A stretch of DNA of 64,000 nucleotides, from assembly GCA_016201275.1 (NCBI GenBank), contig JACQDB010000135.1, positions 1 through 64,000 of the forward strand. The letters run 5' to 3'. The notes below the pieces were generated by a model that made no database searches, was not told the origin of the DNA, and saw only the letters and a list, made by a program, of their open reading frames with translations. Below are positions 9,907 to 57,137 of the stretch, one piece after another; position 1 is the stretch's first letter; every line of letters starts with the position of its first letter. The stretch comes from Acidobacteriota bacterium. Lineage in GTDB: Bacteria > Acidobacteriota > Blastocatellia > UBA7656. Made by a program: the position numbers and the translations under genes.

Positions 9907-12900
9907 TCAAAAATCCAACTTCAAATTCAGTTGAAGGACTCGCGGTCGCTGCGTGCGTCGCGGGATTAAAAAATCTTTGTCATCGCGGTCTATGAATTCC
10001 GAACCGAAACTGAAGGTCGTGCGATTCAACACATTGAAGACATCAATCGCGCCGCGCAGTTTTATGCGTTCACTCAAGGCAAAGGTTCGCGCAACGCGCA
10101 GATTGAAGGTAAAGGTTCCCGGCCCTCTGCCGTAATTGCGCGGCAGGTTGCCGCTTGCACCAATGGGCGCAAGCGCCAAAGCGTTTTTCACCGCATCGGC
10201 AAGTTCACTATTCGGTTTACGCCACAGCGGGCGACCGATTGCGGTAAGAAAATTCGGGCGATCATTTTCGATGTCGTTCAAGTTGCGATCAAATCCCGCG
10301 CCGATGTTGAACGGTCTTGACGAACCGAAGGCGACAATCGGCGCTAGGTCTAAATTGAGTTTCGGAATTTGCAACTGCCCGCTGCATACGAAACGATGAC
10401 GCTGGTCTTGCAAAGACAGTGCGCGTTCGGCGCGGCGGTCTTGCAAATCCTGCGGCGAAGCGGTGTTGGTTGTGCCTTCGTCAATGAATTTCGCCAACGT
10501 GTAAGCAGCGCGAAAATGCACTCGCCGACCGAGCCGGTAACGCACTGAAAAAATGCCGCCGTGATAAAACGAATTGCCGGTGGCTTCCAATAACTCCACT
10601 TGCGTCAATGACGGGTCGGGTCGCAAAACGCGCACCGCTTTCAAGGCCGCGCTGAGATTGCTCGAACGCGGCGCATTCAAACCAAGCGTCAAAATTCTGA
10701 CGCCATTCACCGTCTTGATTGCGCCTGTAGTCGTCGCCGTGTTCGCCCCCGCATCAAAGCGCACCACATCAGCATTAGAACTGGCTATCGGGCGCGCGCC
10801 CTGCACCGGGCGATTATCAAAATCACGGCTCATTAAATAGTCCGTGAAACTGGCAAACCCCGCAGGCAACAACGGCGCATTGATATTGGCTTCGCGCCAC
10901 AGATGCGCCCCGCGTGTGAAAATATAGTCGGCGGTGATGACGAGATTTTTGCTCACTTGACGCTCTATGCCAAGTCCGCTTTGCACGGTGTAAGGGATTT
11001 GTAAATCCTTACTGACGCGGCGCAAAAATCCGGTCTCTTTTACGCCGTAGGTGGGCGCGAGGTTCGCATCGGTTACGGAATTGGGAAATTTGACCAGTGC
11101 TAAAACCGCAGGGCTGAGGTCGGAATCAACCGTGATCGAGGTGCGGCCTAATGAAAAATCATCAAGCGTTCGCAGCAAGGCGCGGTTATAAAAAATGCCG
11201 AAGCCCGCACGTATCACGGTCTTGCCGGATTGCGCCAGCCCTTGGCTTTTTTGTTTACCGCCGAAAGGGTCAAAGGCGATGGCAAGTCGCGGACTGAAAT
11301 TATCGCGGTCGCGCAAAATCGTCTCGTTGTCCCAACGCAGACCGAGCGACAGGGTGAGATGATTTTTCAACTTCCATTCATCCTGAATGAAAATTCCTGT
11401 GACGTTGTTTTGCACGCGGCTTGCAGTGTTGAAGCGTTGCACAAAACGGCTTGGGCGATTGGCTAAAAAATCATCCACGCTGGCAAAGCGATATTGCCCG
11501 TTGGCGGCAAACAGGTTGTCGAAAGTCGAGCGCAGCAATTGCGCGTCGAATCCCGCTTTGAAGAAATGTGTGCCGCCCGTAAACGAGAGCGTGTCTTGAA
11601 TCTGGGTGCGCCGCTCTTGCCGCGCAAAGGCTGGAGCCGAAGCGCTGCCGGTAAACGCACCGGCGATGATTTTCGCCGGTTCATCAATCTCGACGCCTAT
11701 CGAATCCACAGCGGTTTTGCTGCGCGGCAAGAGGCGCGAATATTGCAAGCGCGCCTGATTGAGGAAGCGCGGCGTGAAAATATAATTGTCCGTGAAGCTG
11801 ATGGAATCGGAGTTGCGCCCGGCCAACAAAATCGTCTCTGCCAACCGCGCCCCGCCACCAAAGCCGCGTTGATTCGCGCCGCGTGAAAGGTCGAAACGCG
11901 CCGTCGCATTATGCAACTCGTTGACATAAACATCGCCGCGCAGATTGGCGGTGTTGACGATTTCCGGCGTCGAGATTGCGGTAAACAGCAAGCCGACATG
12001 GCTTCCCGTAGCAAGCGGTTGATTTGGTTGCGGCAACGGAAAAAGCGGATTCGTCTGCACCGGAACCAGCGTATTAATCTCTGCAAAGTCCGTGACGTTG
12101 AGGCGCTCGAAGCTGGCGAAGAAGAACAGTTTTTGTTTGCTGAGGGGGCCGGAAAACGTACCGCCTTCGCGGTACTCTGATTGCGGAATGCGAGACAAAC
12201 CGCGAGCATTGCGAAAGTAGGTGTTGGCATTGAGCGCTTCATCACCGAAGTAGAAATACGCTGCGCCGCGATATTGATTCGCGCCGCTGCGCGTTCGCAC
12301 GTTGATGCGGCTACCGGCGGCGCGGCCATATTCTGCGGCGTATTGATTGGAGATGATCTGCACTTCAGCGATGGCTTCGGGCGACAAGGTGATGCGTTCT
12401 CTAGCGCCACGGTCATCGTTGTTATCGAGACCGTCAATGGTGAGGTTGTTGGAAGTCGCAGGCGCGCCGGTCAACGAAAAGAGGCCCGCTTCTTCGGGGG
12501 CATTGCGAACGAATTGACCGCGCCCTTCGTCGGCCAACTCCGCTGTTGATAAAGGCGCTTCGGTTGCGCCGCCCAACAGAAAAATCAATTGCAGCGGATT
12601 GCGATTGAGGATCGGCAAAGCCTCCAGATCGCGCCGTTCAAAAGTGCCGCCGACCACCGTGCGCGACGTATCTACGAGCGGCGCGCTGGCCGGCGAGACG
12701 GTGATCTGCTCGTTGATGGTTTCCGGCACAAGCGCGAAATCCAGAGTGATGTTGCGACCGCTGCTGGCTTCGATAGCTTTTCTTTCTTCTGCCTTGAAGC
12801 CTGCGGCGTTGACCGTCACCTCATAAATTCCGGGTTCGGTAAAAGTGAGGCGATAGCGCCCTTGACTATCGGTCAGCACCGAGCGTTCGACCCAGGTTGC

Positions 12901-13092
12901 CGTATGTTTTGCCGTAACTCTGGCGGCAACGATGACGGCATTGGCGCTGTCGCGCACTACGCCTGCAAAGATGAGGTTGTCCAAATCATCGGCGCGAACG
13001 ATTCGGAAAGATGAGAACAGCACCATAAACAACAAGGTTCGCGCTATCGCTTTGAGCCACGCAGCGCGGCGTTTGAAAGACCGCTGAGGCAT
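9907..13092 (-). CDS. TonB-dependent receptor with carboxypeptidase-regulatory-like domain (receptor 1)
   Basis: 1061 residues from the ATG at 13092, chosen for its GGAGG ribosome site. A signal peptide (ARTLLFMVLFSSFRIVRA) precedes a carboxypeptidase-regulatory-like beta-sandwich (about 40-115: VRDSANAVIVAARV, TDSQGRYRLTF, YEVTVNAAGFK). Next come a plug with TIDGLDNND and INVRTRSGANQYRGAAYFYFGD, and a long outer-membrane beta-barrel ending in the aromatic LNLKLDF. This large type is expanded in Acidobacteriota and is thought to import oligosaccharides, peptides or chelates using TonB energy. The ligand is unknown. Two TonB-type proteins at 54.9-57.1 kb could energise it. Confidence 0.88.
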   Translation of the reverse strand: MPQRSFKRRAAWLKAIARTLLFMVLFSSFRIVRADDLDNLIFAGVVRDSANAVIVAARVTAKHTATWVERSVLTDSQGRYRLTFTEPGIYEVTVNAAGFKAEERKAIEASSGRNITLDFALVPETINEQITVSPASAPLVDTSRTVVGGTFERRDLEALPILNRNPLQLIFLLGGATEAPLSTAELADEGRGQFVRNAPEEAGLFSLTGAPATSNNLTIDGLDNNDDRGARERITLSPEAIAEVQIISNQYAAEYGRAAGSRINVRTRSGANQYRGAAYFYFGDEALNANTYFRNARGLSRIPQSEYREGGTFSGPLSKQKLFFFASFERLNVTDFAEINTLVPVQTNPLFPLPQPNQPLATGSHVGLLFTAISTPEIVNTANLRGDVYVNELHNATARFDLSRGANQRGFGGGARLAETILLAGRNSDSISFTDNYIFTPRFLNQARLQYSRLLPRSKTAVDSIGVEIDEPAKIIAGAFTGSASAPAFARQERRTQIQDTLSFTGGTHFFKAGFDAQLLRSTFDNLFAANGQYRFASVDDFLANRPSRFVQRFNTASRVQNNVTGIFIQDEWKLKNHLTLSLGLRWDNETILRDRDNFSPRLAIAFDPFGGKQKSQGLAQSGKTVIRAGFGIFYNRALLRTLDDFSLGRTSITVDSDLSPAVLALVKFPNSVTDANLAPTYGVKETGFLRRVSKDLQIPYTVQSGLGIERQVSKNLVITADYIFTRGAHLWREANINAPLLPAGFASFTDYLMSRDFDNRPVQGARPIASSNADVVRFDAGANTATTTGAIKTVNGVRILTLGLNAPRSSNLSAALKAVRVLRPDPSLTQVELLEATGNSFYHGGIFSVRYRLGRRVHFRAAYTLAKFIDEGTTNTASPQDLQDRRAERALSLQDQRHRFVCSGQLQIPKLNLDLAPIVAFGSSRPFNIGAGFDRNLNDIENDRPNFLTAIGRPLWRKPNSELADAVKNALALAPIGASGNLPRNYGRGPGTFTFNLRVARTFALSERIKLRGAIDVFNVLNRTTFSFGSEFIDRDDKDFLIPRRTQRPRVLQLNLKLDF

Positions 13093-13368
13093 AGAGGAAT
13101 TCCTCCGTTGAGAGATTTCATAGTTGCATTGACGATTTGCAAAAACAGCTTTTTCTGAGCGTTGCACGGTGCTGTGACCACGATGAACAGACCAGCCAGA
13201 GGCTTTGAGTTATCGAATGATTCGCTATTGAAATTTAGCCTCTATCAGGAGGGACGGAAAAAAATCACCAAACCATACAAAAAGTTTTCGCCGATAATTT
13301 TTTTTGATGGCGAGTCGAAAAAGAGGAAGGAGGCAGAGCGCAAATAAGAAGGCCGTGCGCTTTGAAGT

Positions 13369-18769: not shown

Positions 18770-21700
18770 TTAAAACGTCAGGCGCAAAGCCAACTGAATA
18801 TTGCGCGAGCCGCCGCCGCCTAAAAACGGATTGCCGATGCCGACATCCGGCGTAACGGTGATCGGCAAAAAGCCTTGTCCGCGCCCGGTCGCCGGGTCTA
18901 TGCCGTTGAAACTGGCGTCGGCAGAAAAGCCCGGCAGCAAAGGCGAAGCGAAGTTCGGATGATTGAAGACATTGAAGACCTCTGCACGAAATTGCAACTT
19001 CACCGCTTCGGTAATCTTCGTGGTTTTGAACAAAGACATATCCACGTTGCGATAGGAGGGGCCGATCAACGCATTGCGTCCGAGGCTGCCGAAGTGCTGC
19101 GTGCCGGGTATGCAGGAGGCGGCGCTGCCATCGCCTTTCGGGTCTAAGGTGCAAGGCACAGCAAAGGCCGAGAGATTCAAGAAACGATCCGCTCCATGCG
19201 TTCCCGCATAAGGGTTGCCGACCAAATCGGGGCGCGGGAAAAATTCGCCCGTGCCGTTATAATCGTCGAACAGATTAAGGTGAAAAGGCGAGCCGCTTCT
19301 CAAGGTGACGATGCCGTTCAACTGCCAGCCTTCGCCCAGGCGCGGATGCGCTTTCCATAAACTCGGCAACTCGTAACTGAACGTCCAGACGAAGCGATGG
19401 CGTCCATCGAAATTCGAGTTGGCGCGCTCCTGATCGGTGCGATAGCTGTTGTCGGGTTGCGTCGCATTGGCTACATAATCCTGGCCGTCCGAAGCGTTGT
19501 CAATCGAATGCGACCAAGTGTAATTGATCTGCGAACTGAAGCCGTGCCAGTTGCTCAAACTCAAACTGCTTTGCAGCGCGTTGTAGATCGAGTTGGAAGT
19601 GGATTCCAGATAATTGACATAAAAGAAGGTCCCGCCCGAAGGCGCAAACGGTCCGTTATCAAAAGGTCTGGCGCTGGACGCCGCCGGATTCACCGGCTGA
19701 TTGATGTCGCGGTAACGAAAAAGTTTGGCTCCCAGCGAACCAACATATCCGACTTGCAGCAAGAGGTTTTTGTTCAATTGATGCTGCACATTCAGGTTGT
19801 AATTCTGCACGTAAGGGGTTCGCACTTTTTGATCAACGGCAAACACATCGGAGTCGGCGTAGTTGGTAAAAATTGGCACGCCGCGTTTAATGGTGTCCAC
19901 CGTCGAGAACGAAAAAAGAATCGCCGCCGGGCCAATCGGATTATAAGCAGGCCCCGGATTGAAGGTGTTGAAGGGCAATTGACCGACGAAAAAGTCTTGC
20001 GAAAAAGCGTCGTAGAACAAGCCCCAACCGGCGCGCACCACGGTTTTGCCTTTGCCCGTCATATCCCAAGCCAGTCCCAGGCGCGGCGAAAAATTATTCA
20101 GGTCGCGGTCATACAAACGGTCAACCATACGCAAGCCGGTCTTGGGAGCGAAGTTGCTGAACAAGCCATGCTTTTCGCCGATGACGCCGAAATAGTCATA
20201 GCGCACGCCAAGATTGAGAGTCAGATTTTTGCTCCAGCGATAGCTGTCCTGCACATAAGCGGTGTGCGAATTTTGAAAAGTGTTGCGCCGCGAATCGCCT
20301 ACTGCTGAACGCCCACCGCTCAAGGTGCCGGAGAGAAAATCTTCGAGCGAAGCGAAGTCCAGGCGTCCGCGATAACCGGCATCGAAGAACGCATTGACGA
20401 AGGTGCGGCGAAATTCGTAGCCGGTCTTGATTTCATGTTTGGTCAGTTTGACGGTCAGGTTGTCTATGAAATGCCAGTTGGTGTCAACGCGAGCGCGTGG
20501 CACCGACAGCGTTGCGCCCAGAGAGGCCAGCGACGAACCGAAGTTCGGGTCGTTGCGAATGCGTATGAAGGGCAAGCCGAAATCTTGCGCTCCTTGAACG
20601 CCGGTGTTCAAACCTATCGAGCGCGGGTCAAAGCTGCGGTCTTCGGGGAAGAAGCCTTCATCGAAGCGGTTATAACCGAAGCGCGCTTCGTTGACTCGGC
20701 GCGACGAAAAAATTTTCAGGTACGAGAGCGACAACAGATTCACCGTCGTTGGCGTCACGGTGTTATAACCCGGCAGCACCGTGCCTGCGAGAATGGCCAG
20801 CGGGAAGGATTGATCGCTAGTGCCAAAGTAATAACGCCCGGTCACTTGATTGCGTTCGTTGAAGGCATGATCAATTTTAGCGATGAAGCTGTGAACATTA
20901 TTTTTGGCGGGCGTGGTGACAAAAAGATTCGGCGACGGGTCAAACAACGCCACAGGATTATTCGGCACAGGCCACGGGTTGCGCGCCAGCAAATCCCGAA
21001 TCACCGGATTGGTTGCGCCGCCCAAGGTGGCGATCTCTCGCGGGTCGGGAACACGGGCGACCGAGTTCAAACCGACTTTTTCGCGTTGGCCTTCATAGCT
21101 GGTAAACCAAAAAGTTTTGTTCTGCACGAAGGGGCCTCCGGCAGCAAAGCCGAATTGGTTGTTATGAAATTCGGTCTGCGCGATGGACTTGCCGCTGCCA
21201 TCGGTTCGCGGGTTGAAATAGTTGCGCGCATCCAGCGCGTTGTTGCGATAAAACTCAAACAGCGAGCCGTGAATTTGATTGCTGCCGGACTTGGTGACGA
21301 TGTTGACGATAGCACCGGAGTTGCGTCCGTACTCGGCTTCAAAGTTCGACAGAATCGCGGCTTCGGCAATCGCTTCGACGGGCAAGATCGTCGCCGGAGT
21401 GCCAAAGACTCCCGCTTCATTGATGGCCGGAAGATTGCGATAGCCGTCGTTCATATCGGTGCCATCGAGCAGATAATTATTCGAGCGTCCGCGATTGCCG
21501 TTGGCGCTGAAGAGGCCGAAGGAACCCGGCGAATCGGTCGCCCCTGAAGGGTCGCCGGTCGCGCCCGGAACCAGCACTAAAAACTTGGTGAAGTCGCGCC
21601 CGTTGATGGGCAAATCGGCGACCTGTTTGGCGGCAATCGTTCCGCCCAAAGTGTTGTTGGTAGTTTGCGCTTGCAAAGTTCCGGCATCAATCTCTACGAC

Positions 21701-22105
21701 CTCTTCGCGGCCTACGCTTAGTTCCGTATCAACGCGACGTTCGCCAGCGACCTCGACTTTCACGGCGCTAACTTTGGCTTTCTTGAAGCCCGTCGCGTCA
21801 ACGGTGACTTCATAATCGCCGATGGGCAATTCTGGAATGGTGTAATTACCGGCGTCGTCCGTGACCGTGGTGCGTTCGATGCCGGTATTAATATTTTTCG
21901 CTTTAATCGTGGCACCGGCAATTGCTGCGCCTTGCGGGTCAGTGACAGTGCCTAAAATTTTGCCGCGAAAAGTTTGCGCCAGCGTCGGCAAAGCCGCGCC
22001 GAAAGTCAGCGCGAAGATCAGAGTGATGGCCGAAAAAGTTTTCAGCAGGTTTGCATAAAAGTTTTTCTGCTTTGCACAAATGAGCGTTTTGCAGGGAAAT
22101 TTCAT
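18770..22105 (-). CDS. TonB-dependent receptor with carboxypeptidase-regulatory-like domain (receptor 2)
   Basis: 1111 residues. The signal peptide ([20 protein letters not shown]) is followed by a carboxypeptidase-regulatory-like domain (about 48-130: [36 protein letters not shown]). The plug has [25 protein letters not shown] and [20 protein letters not shown]; a barrel of about 800 residues ends in [15 protein letters not shown] lies 7 nt before the ATG. It has the same architecture as receptor 1 but diverges in most of the barrel. Its neighbour is feoAB, so a link to metal supply is possible but not shown. Confidence 0.9.
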
Positions 22106-22502: not shown

Positions 22503-24527
22503 TTACGCCACGCCGATAACCCGCAAGCCTTGCACGACGGCTACTGAAAGCAGATAGCCGAGTCCCGTGTAAAACAGCAATTGCAATCCCGCCATCTTCC
22601 ACGAATTGGTTTCGGCGCGCACCACAGAGACCGTCGAAAGACATTGCAGCGAAAAGAAGAAGAAGACCATCAGACCGATGATGCTCGATGGCGTAAACAC
22701 TCGTTGCGAGCTATTGGCAAAGGTCGCTTCGCGCATGGTGTCGAGCAATCCGGCTTGCTGCGCTTGCTCATTATTTTCGTCGGCTACATGAAAGACGATG
22801 GCCATGGTTGACACGAACACTTCACGCGCCGCAAAAGCGGAAATCAAACCGACGCCGACGCGCCAATCTACCGCCATAGGCCGCAGCACAGGTTCCAGGC
22901 TCTGTCCCAGTTGCGCCGCAAAGGAATGATCCAAATCGCTGGCCGTGATGAACGCTGCAGACGTGCCGTCTTCACGTTTAGGTTGCTGCGCGCCAAGCCC
23001 AAAATTGGAAAGCATCCAGAGAATAGAGGAGATGATGATGATCGGTGCTCCGGCTCTTTTCAAATATGCCGAAGCTCTTGACCAAGTGATTTTCAGCGTC
23101 GGTTTGATAAGCGGACGGCGATACAGCGGCATTTCCATAGCCAGCATCGAATCACTTTTTTTGCGTATGAAAAGTTTGCCGATGATGCCTGCAGTTAAGG
23201 AGCCAGTCAACAAACTGGCAAGATAAATACAGGCCAATGCCAGCCCGGCTTTGCCCACCGCACCGGGCAACAGCGCCGCCAGCAACAAAGCATAAACCGG
23301 CAGTCTTGCGCTGCAACTCATCAACGGAATAATCCATATGGTCAGCAGGCGTTCGCGCTTTGACGGAATGGTGCGCGCTGCCAACACCGCAGGAATGGCG
23401 CAGGCAAACCCCGACAGCATGGGAACGAAGGAACGACCATGCAGCCCCAAAGCAGAAAGCGGACGATCAACCAAAGCCGCGCCCCTCGATAAATAGCCGG
23501 AATCTTCCAGCAACGTCATCAGGAAAAAGAGTATGAGGATTTGCGGAAAGAAGACCGCCACCGCACCAACACCGCCGATGATGCCTTCGGCGATGAAGCG
23601 TGCCAAAATACCTTCGGGCAAAACCGCCAGCGTCAACGCTCCGGCTTCTTTGAACAGCCATTCGATAAAGTCCATGAAGGGTTGCGCCAGCCAGAAGATG
23701 GAAGCGAACAAGCCGCCTAAAATAATAAAGAAAATTGGCAAGCCTGCATAACGATGCAGAACGACTTTATCAATGCGTGCGGTCAAAGAATTTTCAGCCA
23801 GCATTAGTGGCCGACTCTTTTTTACTGCGCCGCTGGCGTCTAAAATGGCGCGCAAACGGCGATACGCTTCTACCGGTTCATCGGGAATTTCGGCCAGCAC
23901 AGCGGCGGTGATGAAGGGATTGGTAAGCCGCTCGCGCAATGCCGTCATCAATTCCCCAACGCCCCAACCGGTGCGCCCGTCCACGGGAACCACCGCCACG
24001 CCCAGCGCCTCAGAGAGTTTTTTGCTGTTGATGGTTTGCCCGGATTTGGCTAGTAAATCCATCATCGTCAACGCGACCACCACAGGCTTGCCTTGTCGAG
24101 CAACGAAGGCCGCAAATTTCAAATGACGCTCTAACTGTGTCGCATCTACAACGATGATGAGCGCGTCGGGGTGAATGGAGTCGTGACGGCCTTCGATGAC
24201 CGAGCAGGAAAGTTCTTCTTCTATGGTGGGTGCTACGGTGGAGTGTACGCCCGGCAAATCTACGAAAGAGATTTCCGCGCCCAACTCAGCGCGGCTTTTG
24301 CCACGCGAAATGGTGACCGTGACGCCGGGATAATTAGCGGTGTGAAAGCCGCCGCCGGTCAGGCCGTTCATCAACGCGGTCTTGCCAGCGTTGGGCACGC
24401 CCGCCAGACAAACCGTCAGCACTCGATCCGCAGGCGTGACGGGGGGCGCAGCCTGTTCCTCTGCCGTCCGGGTTTCTGTAGAAGTGGTCGTGAGGGCGCT
24501 GGAGTTGATTAAAGCACTCTGATCCAT
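22503..24527 (-). CDS. feoB: Ferrous iron transporter FeoB
   Basis: 674 residues from the ATG at 24527; upstream in-frame codons only read through feoA. The N-terminal G domain has GVPNAGKT (G1), NYPGVTV, DLPGVHS (G3) and PTIEEE. The membrane half carries the two gate repeats, GFACAIPAVLAARTIPSKRER and SAFAAREVFVSTMAIVFH, and about eight helices. The G4 motif, normally NxxD, reads ALTMMD, so the guanine-contacting Asn is Thr; nucleotide specificity or affinity may differ. The start overlaps the end of feoA by 19 nt, indicating translational coupling. It imports Fe(II) through the inner membrane. Confidence 0.93.
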   Translation of the reverse strand: MDQSALINSSALTTTSTETRTAEEQAAPPVTPADRVLTVCLAGVPNAGKTALMNGLTGGGFHTANYPGVTVTISRGKSRAELGAEISFVDLPGVHSTVAPTIEEELSCSVIEGRHDSIHPDALIIVVDATQLERHLKFAAFVARQGKPVVVALTMMDLLAKSGQTINSKKLSEALGVAVVPVDGRTGWGVGELMTALRERLTNPFITAAVLAEIPDEPVEAYRRLRAILDASGAVKKSRPLMLAENSLTARIDKVVLHRYAGLPIFFIILGGLFASIFWLAQPFMDFIEWLFKEAGALTLAVLPEGILARFIAEGIIGGVGAVAVFFPQILILFFLMTLLEDSGYLSRGAALVDRPLSALGLHGRSFVPMLSGFACAIPAVLAARTIPSKRERLLTIWIIPLMSCSARLPVYALLLAALLPGAVGKAGLALACIYLASLLTGSLTAGIIGKLFIRKKSDSMLAMEMPLYRRPLIKPTLKITWSRASAYLKRAGAPIIIISSILWMLSNFGLGAQQPKREDGTSAAFITASDLDHSFAAQLGQSLEPVLRPMAVDWRVGVGLISAFAAREVFVSTMAIVFHVADENNEQAQQAGLLDTMREATFANSSQRVFTPSSIIGLMVFFFFSLQCLSTVSVVRAETNSWKMAGLQLLFYTGLGYLLSVAVVQGLRVIGVA

Positions 24528-24727
24528 GCGGCTTCCCGGCGTCTGAGCGCCAGACGCATTCCACGCACTTCCACCACCAGCGGGTCGCCAAACGGCACGG
24601 CTTGCACCACCGCCATTTCCTCGCCCGGCGTCAGCCCCAAATCCAGCAACCGGCGACATTCGGTCTCCGGGCCATCCAGTCTTTCGATACGACAACAAGT
24701 GTTGATCGGCGCATCCAGCAGTTTCAT
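24509..24727 (-). CDS. feoA: FeoA-type SH3-like protein
   Basis: 72 residues, the normal size. Core features are ETECRRLLDLGLTPGEEMAVVQAVPFGDPLVVEVRGMRLALRR, the typical FeoA beta-barrel with a Gly-rich turn, cut here only by numbering. It is a small cytoplasmic partner that supports FeoB. The ATG follows AAGG by 5 nt, and the gene is the first of the feoAB pair. Confidence 0.92.
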   Translation of the reverse strand: MKLLDAPINTCCRIERLDGPETECRRLLDLGLTPGEEMAVVQAVPFGDPLVVEVRGMRLALRRREAAWIRVL

Positions 24728-45568: not shown

Positions 45569-46903
45569 ATGACCGAAAAAAATCTTACGCCTCATGTGGT
45601 TATTGTCGGCGCGGGCTTTGGCGGATTGGCAACGGCGCGAGCGCTGAAAAATGCTGCCGTTCGCATCACCCTCGTTGACCGCACCAATCATCACCTCTTT
45701 CAACCGCTGCTTTATCAAGTCGCTATGGCGGGGTTGTCGCCTGCCGATATTGCCGCGCCGATTCGCTCGATTCTGCGTAAACAAAAAAACGTCAACGTCA
45801 TTCTCGATGAAGTGACCGAGGTGGATTTGACTGGCCAAGTCGTCACCATGCGCGATGGGCAATTGCCTTATGATTATCTGGTGTTGGCAACCGGCGGACG
45901 CACCAGTTATTTTGGCCACGACGAATGGGAAAAATTCGCGCCGGGCTTGAAGGATTTAGATGATGCTGTAGAGATTCGTCGCCGCGTCTTGCTGGCCTTT
46001 GAAGCGGCTGAAAAAGCGACCGATGAACAACGCCGCCGCGAGTTGTTGACCTTTGTGGTGGTTGGCGGCGGCCCCACGGGCGTAGAACTTGCGGGAGCGA
46101 TTGCCGAACTGGCGCGCTTTGTTTTAGACCGCGATTTCCGCTCGGTGAATCCGAAATCGGCGCAGATTCTGTTGCTCGAAGGCGGGGCGCGCATCCTGCC
46201 AAGCTTTGCCGCAGAGTTGTCGAAGAGCGCCACTGAACAACTCGAAAATTTGGGCGTCACGGTGCGCCTCAACGCACAAGTAACGAGCCTTGATGACCAA
46301 GGCGTTTTTCTTGGCGACGAATTAATCAAATCGGCAACCGTGATTTGGGGCGCGGGAGTGCGCGCCACTTCGTTGACCACCAAACTCGGCGTGCCGCTCG
46401 ACCGCGCCGGGCGGGTGATTCTGGCAGCCGATTTGACGTTGCCAACATTTCACAACGCTTTTGCGATTGGCGATATGACGGCGTTTTTGCATCAGGACGG
46501 CAAGCCATTGCCCGGCGTCAGCCCCGTAGCCATACAGATGGGCGAGCGCGTCGCTACAAATATCAAGCGCGATTTGCAGGGACAAGCTTACGAAAATTTC
46601 TCTTATCATGACAAAGGCAGCATGGCGACCATAGGGCGTTCGGCGGCCATAGCGCAACGCGGCGACCTGCAGGTAAGCGGCTTCGTCGCCTGGCTGGCGT
46701 GGTTACTGGTGCATATCTTTTTCCTGATCGGCTTTCGCAATCGCTTCGCCGTATTGTTCAACTGGGCGTGGTCGTATTTCACCTATCAACGCGGGGCGCG
46801 ATTAATCACCGGCAGGCGTTTGAGTTTATTGCCGCGTCAAGCGCTGCCTGATGAATCGTCGTCCGCAACGCCGTCAAGCGAAGGCGAATATCTGAGGCGT
46901 TGA
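45569..46903 (+). CDS. ndh: Type II NADH dehydrogenase
   Basis: 444 residues. The FAD-binding start is VVIVGAGFGGLATARAL, followed by NHHLFQPLLYQVAMAGLSPADIA. The NADH site is FVVVGGGPTGVELAGAIAEL. Next is FAIGDMTAFLHQDGKPLPGVSPVAIQMG, typical of NDH-2, and a C-terminal amphipathic membrane region WLAWLLVHIFFLIGFRNRFAVLFNW. It oxidises NADH and reduces quinone without proton pumping, attached to the inner membrane. It is a single gene with its own short upstream region. Confidence 0.94.
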   Translation: MTEKNLTPHVVIVGAGFGGLATARALKNAAVRITLVDRTNHHLFQPLLYQVAMAGLSPADIAAPIRSILRKQKNVNVILDEVTEVDLTGQVVTMRDGQLPYDYLVLATGGRTSYFGHDEWEKFAPGLKDLDDAVEIRRRVLLAFEAAEKATDEQRRRELLTFVVVGGGPTGVELAGAIAELARFVLDRDFRSVNPKSAQILLLEGGARILPSFAAELSKSATEQLENLGVTVRLNAQVTSLDDQGVFLGDELIKSATVIWGAGVRATSLTTKLGVPLDRAGRVILAADLTLPTFHNAFAIGDMTAFLHQDGKPLPGVSPVAIQMGERVATNIKRDLQGQAYENFSYHDKGSMATIGRSAAIAQRGDLQVSGFVAWLAWLLVHIFFLIGFRNRFAVLFNWAWSYFTYQRGARLITGRRLSLLPRQALPDESSSATPSSEGEYLRR

Positions 46904-47902: not shown

Positions 47903-48093
47903 ATCATTCGCATCAAGTTGTAAATCTTTATCAACCTACGGCGCGTCATCACGCTCACCTCTCACTCCATCACTTGTGGACGGGCCTTCATCACATAGTG
48001 ATGCCGCCGCTTCCGCCATAAACCTACACTACATCGCATGGCAAAGGTCGCGTTCGCAACTGGGCGCGACCAGCTTCAGTGCATCGTGACAAA

Positions 48094-48141
48094 GGCTGCG
48101 CCGAGGTTGGAGAGCGTCAGAGGAAAGACTTCGGCGCAGCC
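48094..48141 (+). promoter_or_regulatory. Leader hairpin upstream of the secreted JAMM-like gene
   Basis: GGCTGCGCCGAGG (48094-48106) pairs with CTTCGGCGCAGCC (48129-48141) at 12 of 13 positions around a 22-nt loop, 25 bp before the start codon. No T tract follows. It may affect mRNA stability or be a remnant of a repeat. Confidence 0.4.
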
Positions 48142-48165
48142 CGAATTCAAACTAAGGAGTGTGCT

Positions 48166-48741
48166 ATGCGACGATTCCCTTGCCTCTTCACTTTGGCTCT
48201 CGCGTTTCTAATTTTTCCTGTTGCCGCGACGCCTGTTGTACCGGCAACGCCTAGGCCTCGACCCGCGAAAGACCTCGTGCCTTTCGATCTTTCGCGAATT
48301 GATCAGCAGACGATAAACGCATTTGTGAAAGCTTGGCGCATATCGAAATGCGGCCTCAGCGACAACGAAGGAGTGGTGTTGGTTTATGCCACGCCCACTG
48401 GTCGCTATCAAATCAAAACCCCGAATTCCAGCAATCAGTTTCGGAGTTTCACCTTTCCCTGGCAAGACGACATCATTGCCATCTTTCACACTCACCCGCG
48501 CAGCGTTGACCCCAGACCCTCGCTCTATGATATGCAGGTAGCCGATAAATATCAGGTGTTGGTCTTCACACTGACCTTGCAGGGAATGTACGTTTATGAC
48601 CCGCAGCTTAAAAGGACGCATCTGGTAATCGCTGGGCTGGATTGGCTGGAGGCCGCGAAGTGGACGGATGAGTTGGCGACCAAGATGGCGGCGGTGTCGT
48701 CGTCGTTTTCATCAAGACTGATAACCAACGGTTCACGGTAA
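48166..48741 (+). CDS. Secreted JAMM/DUF4329-like metalloprotease-fold protein
   Basis: 191 residues from ATG 48166, with AAGGAG 6 nt upstream. A signal peptide (CLFTLALAFLIFPVAA) is followed by a Pro-rich linker and a domain with IAIFHTHPRSVDPRPSLYDMQVA. His108, His110, Ser119 and Asp122 match the JAMM metal site except for an 8-residue instead of 7-residue spacer; Glu68 could be the catalytic acid. Related DUF4329 domains occur in secreted toxins and lysins. The predicted role is a zinc-dependent isopeptidase or peptidase outside the cytoplasm, unproven. Confidence 0.7.
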   Translation: MRRFPCLFTLALAFLIFPVAATPVVPATPRPRPAKDLVPFDLSRIDQQTINAFVKAWRISKCGLSDNEGVVLVYATPTGRYQIKTPNSSNQFRSFTFPWQDDIIAIFHTHPRSVDPRPSLYDMQVADKYQVLVFTLTLQGMYVYDPQLKRTHLVIAGLDWLEAAKWTDELATKMAAVSSSFSSRLITNGSR

Positions 48742-48748
48742 GCTGAAT

Positions 48749-50917
48749 TTATCGAAGGTTGAATTCCAATTCCATGACTACCCAATAAGGAACAGGCCGG
48801 CCATCTTTCATGGCCGGCTTAAAAACCATATCTCTAATAGATTTTTCTGCCTCTTGATTTAAGCCGTCAGGCAATCCCCATACAATTTTCACCTCTTTAA
48901 TTTTGCCATCTGTGCCAACCAATGCTCGCAAACGAATCCTGCCTTCGATTTTATTCCGGCGCGCTTCTTCGGGATAATTCGGACGCGGACGGGTCAAAGG
49001 TATAGGTTTGGAATCAACGCTCTTTGCCGATCCATCTGCATTGAAACCTGCTCCTGTACTATTGTCGTCCGCCTTCTCTTGTGCCTCTGATGCTTCACTT
49101 TCCTGCTGCTTAAAATCGTTGGGGATACCGCGAATTTCTGTTACGGCTGGCACAGAGGGTAGCGTGGCCTTGTTGGCCTTGGCGGTTTGTGATGCAGTAG
49201 AGATAGTGGCTTGAACAGTCGCGTCGTAAACCACTTCGCCGCCGATGACGGTCATGATGCAGCGCGTCTTTAAGATTTCCGGTTCGGCGATTTTCATGAT
49301 GTCTGCCGATAGCACCGTCAGGTCGGCGAATTTGCCAACTTCTATGGAGCCTCTGCTCTTCTCTTCAAACGCCGCGTTCGCCGCCCACAAGGTAAACATC
49401 TTCAAGGCGTCCTGGCGCGAAACTTTTTGCTCAGGGTGCCAGCCTTCGCCGGTGAAGCCTTTCATATCCTTGCGCGATACCGCCGCGTAAAATTCAATCA
49501 TCGGTTCGCCCCTTTCCACAGGCGCGTCCGAACCTCCGGCAACCTTGCAACCCAACTTGATGAAACTCTCCCACGCATACGCCCCGGCGAGGCGCTTCAT
49601 GCCCAGACGCGACGGCGCAAAATGCAGATCGCCAATAGCGTGCGACGGCTGCATAGAAGGAATGACGCCGAGTTTGGCAAAACGCGGAATGTCGTCCGGG
49701 TGGACAATCTGCGCGTGTTCAATTCGCCAGCGCGGCTCTTGCACTTTGCGTTCGGCAACCGGCACCGCTTTGAAAGCTTTTTCGTACAAATCCAGAATCA
49801 CGCGATTCGCCCTATCGCCTATCGCATGAGTTTCGACTTGAATGCCGCTCTTCAAGGCTTCGACCAGCATCGGGTACAACTCTTCTTCTTTGACCGTGGT
49901 AAAACCTGCGGTGTTGTAATCGGAATAATTTTCCAACAGCCAAGCGCCTTTGGAACCGAGCGCTCCGTCCATCACCACTTTGATGGTTCTGAGGGTGAAG
50001 CGCTGATCGAATTGCCCTGGGCTTGCGCCTTCTTTCATCAACCGCGAGGCGTTGACGCCGGGGCCATAAATCGCTTTGTAGATTCGCAATTTGATTTTGC
50101 CTTCGCCATAAAGTTTTTTATACAACTCGACATCCGCATAACTACCTCCGGCGTCGTGAATCTGCGTCCAGCCGAGTTCGAGGCTGCGTTTGACGCCCAG
50201 CAATATCGCCTGTTCGGTGTCGGCGCGACCGCCTGCGGGAATCTTGCTGCCAAGGAGCGCTTGCGCCTTGTCCAAAAACATTCCGTTCGGTTCACCTGTC
50301 TGTTGGTCTTTCATGATTTCGCCGCCAAACGGATTGGGTGTGTTTTTATCTACGCCAGCGAGTTTGATGGCGGCGCTATTGGCCACCCCCGCGTGACCAT
50401 CGGCGCGGGTCAGATAGACGGGATTATGGGGCGCAATTTTATCCAAGTCCCAACGGGTCGGAAAAGCTTGCGGCTTCCAGAAAGTTTCAATCCAACCGCG
50501 CCCCGTCACCCATTCGCCGACTTTGGTTTTATCAACACGCTCTTTGATACGCGCCAGAAATTCATCGAGCGTGTTGGTGCCTTCAAGGTTCAAGGTCATC
50601 TCGCGCTGGCCTACGCCGATCAAGTGATAATGCGAATCGGTCAAACCTGGCACCACGGTGTTGCCCTTGAGGTCAACGATTTTGGTGGCTTTGCCTTCGT
50701 AAGCTTTGGCGTCTTTGTTCGAGCCGACGAAGATGATTTTTCCGGCCTTCACGGCGAGGGCTTCGGCACGCGCTTGCTTGTCGTTGACGGTGTAGATGTT
50801 GCCGTTTTTGAAAACCACATCGGCGGCTTCTGCGAACGCTTCAACCGTTTCAGCGCGAGTAAACGCCAGCGGCAGACACCACAGCAAAGCAATCAAGGTC
50901 AGGGAGATGATTCGCAT
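48749..50917 (-). CDS. Secreted amidohydrolase (YtcJ-like) fused to a TonB C-terminal domain
   Basis: 722 residues. A signal peptide (ISLTLIALLWCLPLAFTRA) is followed by an amidohydrolase (about 30-575): GLTDSHYHLIGVG with the metal-binding His pair, TRADGHAGVANSAA, HAIGDRANRVILDLY, RIEHAQIVHPDDI and GGSDAPVERGEP. After a linker (600-625) the last ~95 residues are a TonB_C domain: RPRPNYPEEARRNKIEG, IKEVKIVWGLPDGLNQEA, then MVFKPAMKDGRPVPYWV and ELEFNLR. The linker motif GFNADGSAKSVDSKP also occurs before the TonB_C domain of the gene at 54904. The stop converges on the JAMM gene. The fusion is unusual for this family. Confidence 0.88.
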   Translation of the reverse strand: MRIISLTLIALLWCLPLAFTRAETVEAFAEAADVVFKNGNIYTVNDKQARAEALAVKAGKIIFVGSNKDAKAYEGKATKIVDLKGNTVVPGLTDSHYHLIGVGQREMTLNLEGTNTLDEFLARIKERVDKTKVGEWVTGRGWIETFWKPQAFPTRWDLDKIAPHNPVYLTRADGHAGVANSAAIKLAGVDKNTPNPFGGEIMKDQQTGEPNGMFLDKAQALLGSKIPAGGRADTEQAILLGVKRSLELGWTQIHDAGGSYADVELYKKLYGEGKIKLRIYKAIYGPGVNASRLMKEGASPGQFDQRFTLRTIKVVMDGALGSKGAWLLENYSDYNTAGFTTVKEEELYPMLVEALKSGIQVETHAIGDRANRVILDLYEKAFKAVPVAERKVQEPRWRIEHAQIVHPDDIPRFAKLGVIPSMQPSHAIGDLHFAPSRLGMKRLAGAYAWESFIKLGCKVAGGSDAPVERGEPMIEFYAAVSRKDMKGFTGEGWHPEQKVSRQDALKMFTLWAANAAFEEKSRGSIEVGKFADLTVLSADIMKIAEPEILKTRCIMTVIGGEVVYDATVQATISTASQTAKANKATLPSVPAVTEIRGIPNDFKQQESEASEAQEKADDNSTGAGFNADGSAKSVDSKPIPLTRPRPNYPEEARRNKIEGRIRLRALVGTDGKIKEVKIVWGLPDGLNQEAEKSIRDMVFKPAMKDGRPVPYWVVMELEFNLR

Positions 50918-54903: not shown

Positions 54904-55923
54904 ATGCAAAACAAAGCCTTGTTTGCAGACGCATTCATCTCTCAACCGTCATTGGTTGCGCGTCTAGCGATGGAGTTTGCGGAAGCCAGCCGCGAATTTC
55001 GTGAGAACCCAAGTCAATATGTCAGCAGCGCCGTCAAAGGCGATGGCATCGGCGGACGGCGACGCAGAATGCACTTGATGTATGGCGCGGCGGTCGCCTT
55101 GCTGGTTTTTTCAACCCTCTTTCTGGGAATTCTGGTGGCTTACACCATTACCCACGCCAAAGATAAAATCGGCGATGAACTAGCCGAAACCTCCATACCG
55201 CTGGTTGATCCCAACGATTTCAAGATGCAGGAAATAGATGCGCCGAAATCGTCGGCCAAAGAACGCGCCGGTGGTGGCGGCGGTGGCGGTCGCAAAACTC
55301 CTACGCCTCCTTCCAAAGGTCAATTGCCGGAATTTTCTTTGAAGCCTCCGATTATTGCGCCACGACCGGAGCAGACCTTGCGTCCACCCGCGTTGCCGGT
55401 GCCTGAGACGGTACAGGTTGATCCGCGCCTGCAACCCAAGCGTGATGATTTAACCCCGACGGGATTACCAACCGGCGTGCTGGGACCGCCTTCGGCAGGG
55501 CCAGGTGAAGGCGGCGGTATGGGAACCGGTAAAAACGGCGGTATGGGGTCGGGCGATGGCACAGGTGTTGGCCCCGGCAGAGGCTTCAACATGGGTGGCG
55601 GCGATCCCCGACTTGGCGGCAGCGATTTTAACGCGGACGGCTCGGCCAAGAGCGTGGATTCAAAACCCCAAGCGTTGAACCGCCCACGTCCCAATTACAC
55701 GGAAGAAGCGCGCAAGAACAAGATTCAGGGCGTGGTCAGAGCGCGGGCGCTCATTGGCGCGGATGGCAGCGTCAAACAGGTCAGGGTCCTCAGCAGCCTT
55801 CCCGATGGTCTGAACGAAGAAGCGATTCTGGCCGTCAAACAGATGCGCTTTAAACCCGCTACCAAAAATGGTCAACCCGTTCCTTTCTGGCAGACACTCG
55901 AAATCGAGTTCAACCTGCGTTAG
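54904..55923 (+). CDS. TonB-type energy transducer 1
   Basis: 339 residues. An unusual cytoplasmic N-terminus of about 55 residues (VARLAMEFAEASREFRENP) precedes a single membrane span (AAVALLVFSTLFLGILVAYTI, about 61-81). A periplasmic Gly/Pro-rich spacer follows (GGGGGG, PPIIAPRPEQT, GGGMGTGKNGGMGSG) and then a C-terminal TonB_C domain (NRPRPNYTEEARKNKIQGVV to LEIEFNLR). It should couple the inner-membrane proton gradient to TonB-dependent receptors. No ExbB or ExbD lies nearby. GGGAGG 8-9 nt upstream supports the start. Confidence 0.85.
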   Translation: MQNKALFADAFISQPSLVARLAMEFAEASREFRENPSQYVSSAVKGDGIGGRRRRMHLMYGAAVALLVFSTLFLGILVAYTITHAKDKIGDELAETSIPLVDPNDFKMQEIDAPKSSAKERAGGGGGGGRKTPTPPSKGQLPEFSLKPPIIAPRPEQTLRPPALPVPETVQVDPRLQPKRDDLTPTGLPTGVLGPPSAGPGEGGGMGTGKNGGMGSGDGTGVGPGRGFNMGGGDPRLGGSDFNADGSAKSVDSKPQALNRPRPNYTEEARKNKIQGVVRARALIGADGSVKQVRVLSSLPDGLNEEAILAVKQMRFKPATKNGQPVPFWQTLEIEFNLR

Positions 55924-56033
55924 CGTAACGGTTGTCACAACACTATGAGTGGTTGCGTGCCGCGATTCGAGGCTTCCGTTTGGAGGCTTCCAATCGCGGC
56001 GTTCACTTTACGAAAAAAGTTTCTCTCAGCAAC

Positions 56034-57137
56034 ATGGCTACACTAATCACAAGCGAATTCGTCAAAACGCGGGAACCGCTTGCCGCTTTCTCTATGCTAG
56101 AGCAAAAGGGCATAGTGGCGCGCCTGGTTGAAGAGCTTGCGCTTGCGATAAAAGATTTCACCCGCGACCCGCGCAGTTTTCTGCGCGACCTGTTTGCCGA
56201 CGAAGCTAAAGACCTGCAACGCCGCAAACGTCTGCGGATGGGCTTGGCGTTGGCACTGACAACACAACTGGTTTTATTTGGTGTGATCGCTTATTTCGGC
56301 TGGCATCATTCAATGGCGACAACGAAAGCGGATGAATTGCCCTACAAGGTGAAGTGGGTTGACCCGAATGATTTTAAACCTGAGCCGACAAAAACAACGG
56401 AGTCAGCCGCCAACGGCAACGATTCATCAAAAGTTGAAATGCCGAAAGGTAATCGCGACGCTGGCGCAAGCAACGGCGGCGGCGGTAACGAAAGCTCTAC
56501 ACCTGCCAAACAAGGGGTCTTACCTCCGGCAGTTTCGATTCCACCAATGGTATCTGTAAACGCACCCAGCGCTCCTGCACCTAGTCTTGCCATCTCCCCG
56601 ACGATTGAAGGAATTCCGACGCCGCCGCCACCGAATACGAATATTGGTTTGCCCAATGGCGATCCGCATTCCGCTTCAGGCGGGAAAGGCACGGGTGATG
56701 GTCTTGGCGATGGGAATGGTCCCGGCGCAGGCAACAACACAGGCCCCGGCGCAGGCAATGGGAAAGGCGAGCGCGGTTCGGGAACCGGAACCGGCAACCC
56801 CGGCACCCCGAATGGTTCTTTGATTCCGACCGGGCCGATTAATTATTCTCTGCTTGCCGGAATACCGGACAGCACAGGCATCGTCTTCGTTCGCCGCGTC
56901 AAGCCCATCGTCACGGCTGAAGCGCAGGCCAACAAAGATTTCGGCTATGTGTTCATTGAAGCGACTTTCAATAAAGACGGCACGATCAGCGATATTGTCA
57001 TCAGACAATCGGTGCCATCAATGGATGAGCAGGCGAAAGAAGCCGTCCGGCAAATTAAATTTCGCCCCGCGACGATTCGTGGCGAACCGATTACCTTGCG
57101 GAAAGTGCCGATTAAAGTGCCGATCAGAATTGAGTAA
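56034..57137 (+). CDS. TonB-type energy transducer 2
   Basis: 367 residues from ATG 56034, chosen because the N-terminus then matches the paralogue (MLEQKGIVARLVEELALAIKDFTRDP against LVARLAMEFAEASREF). The membrane span is LALALTTQLVLFGVIAYFGW (about 65-84). A long Gly/Pro/Asn spacer (GGKGTGDGLGDGNGPGAGN) is followed by TonB_C with EAQANKDFGYVFIEATFNKDG and KEAVRQIKFRPATIRGEPI. The gene follows transducer 1 at 110 bp. The two differ strongly in spacer and tail and may serve different receptors. Confidence 0.83.
   Translation: MATLITSEFVKTREPLAAFSMLEQKGIVARLVEELALAIKDFTRDPRSFLRDLFADEAKDLQRRKRLRMGLALALTTQLVLFGVIAYFGWHHSMATTKADELPYKVKWVDPNDFKPEPTKTTESAANGNDSSKVEMPKGNRDAGASNGGGGNESSTPAKQGVLPPAVSIPPMVSVNAPSAPAPSLAISPTIEGIPTPPPPNTNIGLPNGDPHSASGGKGTGDGLGDGNGPGAGNNTGPGAGNGKGERGSGTGTGNPGTPNGSLIPTGPINYSLLAGIPDSTGIVFVRRVKPIVTAEAQANKDFGYVFIEATFNKDGTISDIVIRQSVPSMDEQAKEAVRQIKFRPATIRGEPITLRKVPIKVPIRIE

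Follow-up and report, generated by a model that had tools for sequence, protein, structure and literature searches.

TonB_C is the C-terminal domain of the energy transducer TonB (PF03544/TIGR01352), a protein that also contains a transmembrane helix, a motor-binding segment, and a proline-rich spacer. The domain is known from other settings. In MxcH, a receptor, TonB_C stands at the N-terminus (NCBIfam NF038079). FusB is an anchored transducer, and its TonB domain directly binds the imported substrate (PMC7593965). Searches of the literature for fusions of TonB_C in Acidobacteriota returned nothing on point, and a paper of 2025 that treats periplasmic force transducers (PMC12204202) makes no mention of Acidobacteria.

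The window analyzed here is a 64,000-nucleotide stretch from a member of the Blastocatellia and belongs to a 6.8 Mb genome (G000; 162 contigs, 98.7% complete). TonB_C was found in 158 of the 158 genomes of this class that were searched. The window genome has 13, and about half of the proteins are not canonical transducers, e.g., an M56/BlaR1 peptidase, a TPR protein, a HEAT protein, and a protein with two TonB_C domains, among others. Relatives add a kinase-TonB_C protein and a DUF5122 propeller joined to a transducer-type TonB_C. Joining TonB_C to other proteins is thus a habit of the class, and the amidohydrolase fusion described below is one more case.

Some of these carriers have unusual layouts. 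In the window's own genome, a TonB_C precedes a long TPR array (L009, G000:C55:25719-25946). A secreted 413-aa protein (L007, G000:C157) has two TonB_C domains around an unnamed domain, and the G001 gene next to the amidohydrolase encodes this unnamed domain as well. The DUF5122 beta-propeller with a transducer-type TonB_C (G002, L162 95-2104, plus strand) is an independent case in the family. A 774-aa frame in G006 (L169 409-2730, plus strand) combines a double zinc ribbon, a protein kinase, and a C-terminal TonB_C, an odd mix of inside and outside parts.

Layout and distribution of the fusion

The fusion is a single ORF of 722 aa on the minus strand (48749..50917; ORF list, Pfam, and structure models), while frame 1 of the plus strand is interrupted by stops. 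The protein is composed of a signal peptide, a YtcJ-type Amidohydro_3 domain, a disordered linker, and TonB_C, in that order. The original prediction of one frame joining the two domains is real, and both score far above their Pfam cut-offs. The N-terminus, MRIISLTLIALLWCLPLAFTRAE, resembles a Sec signal peptide when read by eye. The putative signal peptide comprises residues 1-22 (50852..50917, minus strand), with a helix at residues 2-17 in the model and a presumed cleavage site. The enzyme looks secreted, as had been proposed. No second hydrophobic anchor was seen beyond this segment, either by eye or in the model. The TonB_C domain is complete and, in agreement with the earlier description, lacks a membrane anchor, since the sole hydrophobic stretch is the signal-like N-terminus. 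The product is presumably periplasmic.

The Amidohydro_3 match (PF07969) spans residues 79-564 (49226..50683, minus strand) and covers profile positions 1-472 of 472 (E 2e-105, 354 bits, cut-off 29.7). H96 and H98 (the HxH motif), H175, K313, H364, H401, and D464 are present, and the HxH, Lys, His, His, and Asp residues are presumably those that bind metal, as is general for the superfamily. The closest solved structures, 3igh and 3icj, are uncharacterized metal-dependent hydrolases. The amidohydrolase is probably active, because its catalytic motifs do not vary in any of 93 orthologue loci. The fusion most likely yields a metal-dependent amidohydrolase of the periplasm whose active site is intact.

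A low-complexity, disordered linker follows at residues 567-629 (49031..49219, minus strand), as judged from sequence comparison and models. TonB_C with an N-terminal extension makes up residues 630-722 (48752..49030, minus strand; Pfam and models). Within it, the profile match to PF03544 covers residues 644-721 (48755-48988, minus strand) and positions 1-79 of 79 (E 6e-18, 65.5 bits). The tail also matches TIGR01352, the energy transducer TonB, at 44.2 bits against a cut-off of 27.1. Nine transducers of the family share 36 invariant residues, of which the tail retains 32. The tail model has a pLDDT of about 97, and its structure matches are TonB C-terminal domains. The best is Pseudomonas aeruginosa TonB bound to FoxA (TM by target 0.84), and the predicted fold is like that of the TonB domains in receptor complexes 6i97, 2gsk, and 2grx. 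In the full-length model, the enzyme and TonB_C fold as separate units with a disordered stretch between them (residues 570-655, pLDDT <50).

About 85 orthologues were checked in all, from the 80 best named loci, mostly in Acidobacteriota, Verrucomicrobiota, and Gemmatimonadota, and from 7 genomes of the same family or order. TonB_C in frame after the enzyme was found in none of these 80 loci and 7 relatives. The orthologues stop near residue 566; the exceptions are a few that are cut by contig ends or have an internal stop. A close orthologue is present in 49 of 162 class genomes and, by frame length and reading of the loci, is fused in the window genome only. A query spanning the junction returned nothing comparable across 396 genomes of the phylum. 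The search included one genome of the window's genus and, outside the phylum, was confined to the closest amidohydrolases. No homologue with the same Amidohydro_3 and TonB_C fusion, an outcome named beforehand as counting against the original prediction, was thus found in the genomes searched. A single genome is the whole record of the age and maintenance of the fusion.

Origin of the fused domain

The unfused state is observed in the nearest genome, G001. Its enzyme is 80% identical to that of the window and is encoded without TonB_C (L044 5992-7707, minus strand). A separate gene for a secreted TonB_C protein of 348 aa (L044 4915-5961, minus strand) lies directly downstream, 30 nt away and in the same strand and frame. 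This gene encodes a signal peptide of its own and ~250 aa of N-terminal sequence, both of which are missing from the fusion. The window genome contains no further close copy of this gene; among full-length relatives, the next is 31% identical. In G006 and G002, where the downstream genes were listed, the enzyme is not followed by a TonB_C gene, and the other orthologue regions examined have no TonB_C gene match downstream of the enzyme.

The fusion is therefore likely to be a lineage-specific merger of two neighboring genes, the enzyme gene and the secreted TonB_C gene. The comparison with G001 supports an origin from adjacent genes, and the exact path is a reconstruction from sequence. The ancestor shared with G001 would have had a gene for a secreted YtcJ-type enzyme and, 30 nt on, the secreted TonB_C gene in the same strand and frame. 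In the window lineage, the stop codon, the spacer, and the ~250 N-terminal codons of the second gene would then have been lost or replaced by linker. This would have left the TonB_C of the second gene on the enzyme, with a linker of no recognizable ancestry between them. Compared with all frames of the G001 downstream gene, the linker (residues 564-625) has no similarity above that of shuffled sequence.

Synonymous divergence is consistent with this origin. The fused tail and the G001 downstream gene differ by a dS of 1.14, equal to the 1.18 between the two enzymes, although the low GC3 common to tail and downstream gene could by itself depress the value. Between the tail and the G001 transducer, dS is 2.4. 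Estimates over 95 codons are noisy, since the transducer orthologues themselves reach 2.7. The tail and the G001 downstream gene have the same GC3, 0.42. They are also paired in the best tree found, but across domain trees of 22-25 TonB_C sequences the fused domain is unplaced, and the AU test rejected none of three groupings.

Gene order, compared by eye, places a rearrangement at the same site. The neighborhoods of window and G001 agree in a LytTR regulator, a JAMM-motif protein, an acyl-CoA dehydrogenase, a YCF48-like protein, and two TonB-type genes. An NADH dehydrogenase-like gene directly adjoins the TonB_C gene in G001 and lies elsewhere in the window (45569..46903, plus strand), which indicates that the 3' side of the fusion was rearranged. 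The fusion site coincides with this breakpoint. The reverse event, fission in G001, was rejected. In every outgroup the enzyme stands by itself. The downstream gene, moreover, starts with a separate signal peptide, and paralogues in the two genomes have the same N-terminal region.

The JAMM-motif protein is of separate interest. It is a secreted protein of ~200 aa with the JAMM-like motif FHTHPRSVDPRPSLYDMQVAD and no Pfam match (window 48079-48741, plus strand; L044 2575-3174, plus strand). The gene adjoins the LytTR regulator, an arrangement conserved in G001. The product is possibly an unrecognized secreted MPN/JAMM protease.

A rival candidate for the source of the tail lies in the window itself. 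An anchored TonB-type transducer of 339 aa (54904..55923, plus strand) is followed by a second anchored TonB-type protein of 401 aa with a more divergent TonB_C (55932..57137, plus strand). The 339-aa protein has the motif FNADGSAKSVDSKP before its TonB_C, identical to that of the fusion in 14 of 14 residues. Nine of the 14 motif codons differ between the two genes, all synonymously, with no non-synonymous change. This motif had been read as a shared linker. The relation to the transducer stands, but most of the motif is modeled as ordered (block means of pLDDT 86 and 94), so it would be largely an N-terminal extension of the folded TonB_C and not a free linker. Among the sequences compared, its core, DGSAKSVDS, is common only to the fusion and the transducers of G000 and G001, where the G001 transducer retains it. 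The tail also has its top protein identity, 61%, with the 54904 transducer.

These likenesses would be expected if the tail had been copied by recombination directly from this transducer or its ancestor, independently of the adjacent gene in G001. Such a copy is unlikely. Synonymous sites of the tail are saturated against the 54904 transducer but not against the G001 downstream gene. GC3 of the tail is unlike the 0.65 of the 54904 TonB_C, the same value as in the enzyme. The tail and the G001 downstream gene share the 3' end TAA+ATTC, as opposed to TAGCGT in both transducers. A tree constrained to the copy is 5.5 log units worse, though the AU test does not reject it. The 54904 transducer is probably a paralogue of the fused domain rather than its immediate donor. 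Given the separate TonB_C gene in G001, the dS match to it, and the saturation against 54904, the original prediction that both were shuffled from the same immediate source is not supported.

Under the merger of neighboring genes, the motif has the following simplest account. The TonB_C of the G001-type downstream gene descends from a transducer of the same lineage, and the G001 copy lost the motif. The motif region of the fusion resembles the transducers more than it resembles the G001 downstream gene, which leaves room for a possible later exchange between the fused tail and the transducer. An artefact of assembly or sequencing that joined two genes is very improbable: the fusion is known from one genome assembled as 162 contigs, but the frame is open across 156 additional codons, the gene order on the 5' side agrees with G001, and the longest word common to the fusion gene and the rest of the window is at most 14 nt, which makes a repeat-mediated misjoin within the window unlikely.

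Possible roles of the tail

The N-terminal transmembrane helix and motor-binding (SHLS) segment of TonB transducers were not found in the fusion, by eye or in the model. The periplasm-spanning domain of the transducer type is also missing, and the globular enzyme and a linker of ~60 residues are in its place. Without helix and motor-binding segment, the fusion is unlikely to transduce energy. Its TonB_C would be at most a passive protein-binding module. The dN/dS of the tail is 0.36, a figure that includes the time before the fusion, compared with 0.12 for the enzyme and 0.07 for the transducers. With the same reservation, the weaker constraint on the tail makes a strictly conserved contact with a receptor less likely.

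A tentative but serious reading is that of an appendage that is neutral or decaying, i.e., a TonB_C without a selected role. It fits a fusion found in one genome, a constraint relaxed relative to the transducers, and a disordered linker of no recognizable ancestry. Yet at a dS of about 1 the tail has neither a stop nor a frameshift, its core TonB_C residues are retained, and its dN/dS is well below 1, though again with pre-fusion time included. This reading concerns function and does not exclude an origin from adjacent genes.

The same is true of docking, which is doubtful. Here, the tail would bind the TonB boxes of receptors without energy and hold the enzyme at the receptor exit, where an imported amide- or peptide-like substrate would be hydrolyzed as it emerges from the TonB-dependent receptor. 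The TonB_C is full length and keeps nearly all of the transducer-invariant residues, its model is closest to a TonB bound to the receptor FoxA, and the window encodes two TonB-dependent-type receptors. A precedent is FusB, in which the TonB domain contacts the imported substrate (PMC7593965). Against docking are the confinement of the fusion to one genome, the weaker constraint on the tail than on the transducers, and the competition that an unanchored TonB_C would pose to the real transducers; nothing in the genomic evidence indicates docking. If the tail does bind receptors, TonB_C could act as a plain periplasmic address tag.

Oar-like receptors in the window, made up of CarboxypepD_reg and OMP_b-brl_4, are located at 9907-13167 and 18770-22105, both on the minus strand. 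A FeoB-type gene (22503-24698, minus strand) adjoins the latter.

Comparison with known systems

As a likely product of two genes whose unfused state is kept in the nearest relative, the fusion would be a clear case of neighboring genes merged into one protein. It also adds an enzyme to the non-transducer carriers of TonB_C, a frequent and unexplained pattern in Blastocatellia. The chimeras of this class (M56/BlaR1, kinase, DUF5122 propeller, TPR, and HEAT) are alike in placing TonB_C on a protein other than a canonical transducer. Their partner domains differ from the amidohydrolase, and several are membrane proteins.

Relative to the YtcJ/NfdA-type amidohydrolases, the fusion has the same full-length domain, metal-site motifs, and nearest structures. 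The C-terminal TonB_C is found only in the fusion and is absent from every orthologue checked. With the energy transducer TonB, it shares a complete TonB_C above both curated cut-offs and the predicted fold, whereas the transmembrane helix, the motor-binding segment, and the proline-rich spacer are lacking. In MxcH and FusB, TonB_C likewise extends beyond the plain transducer role and contacts receptor or substrate (PMC7593965). The former is a receptor and the latter a transducer with an anchor; unlike the fusion, neither is an enzyme that carries a soluble TonB_C.
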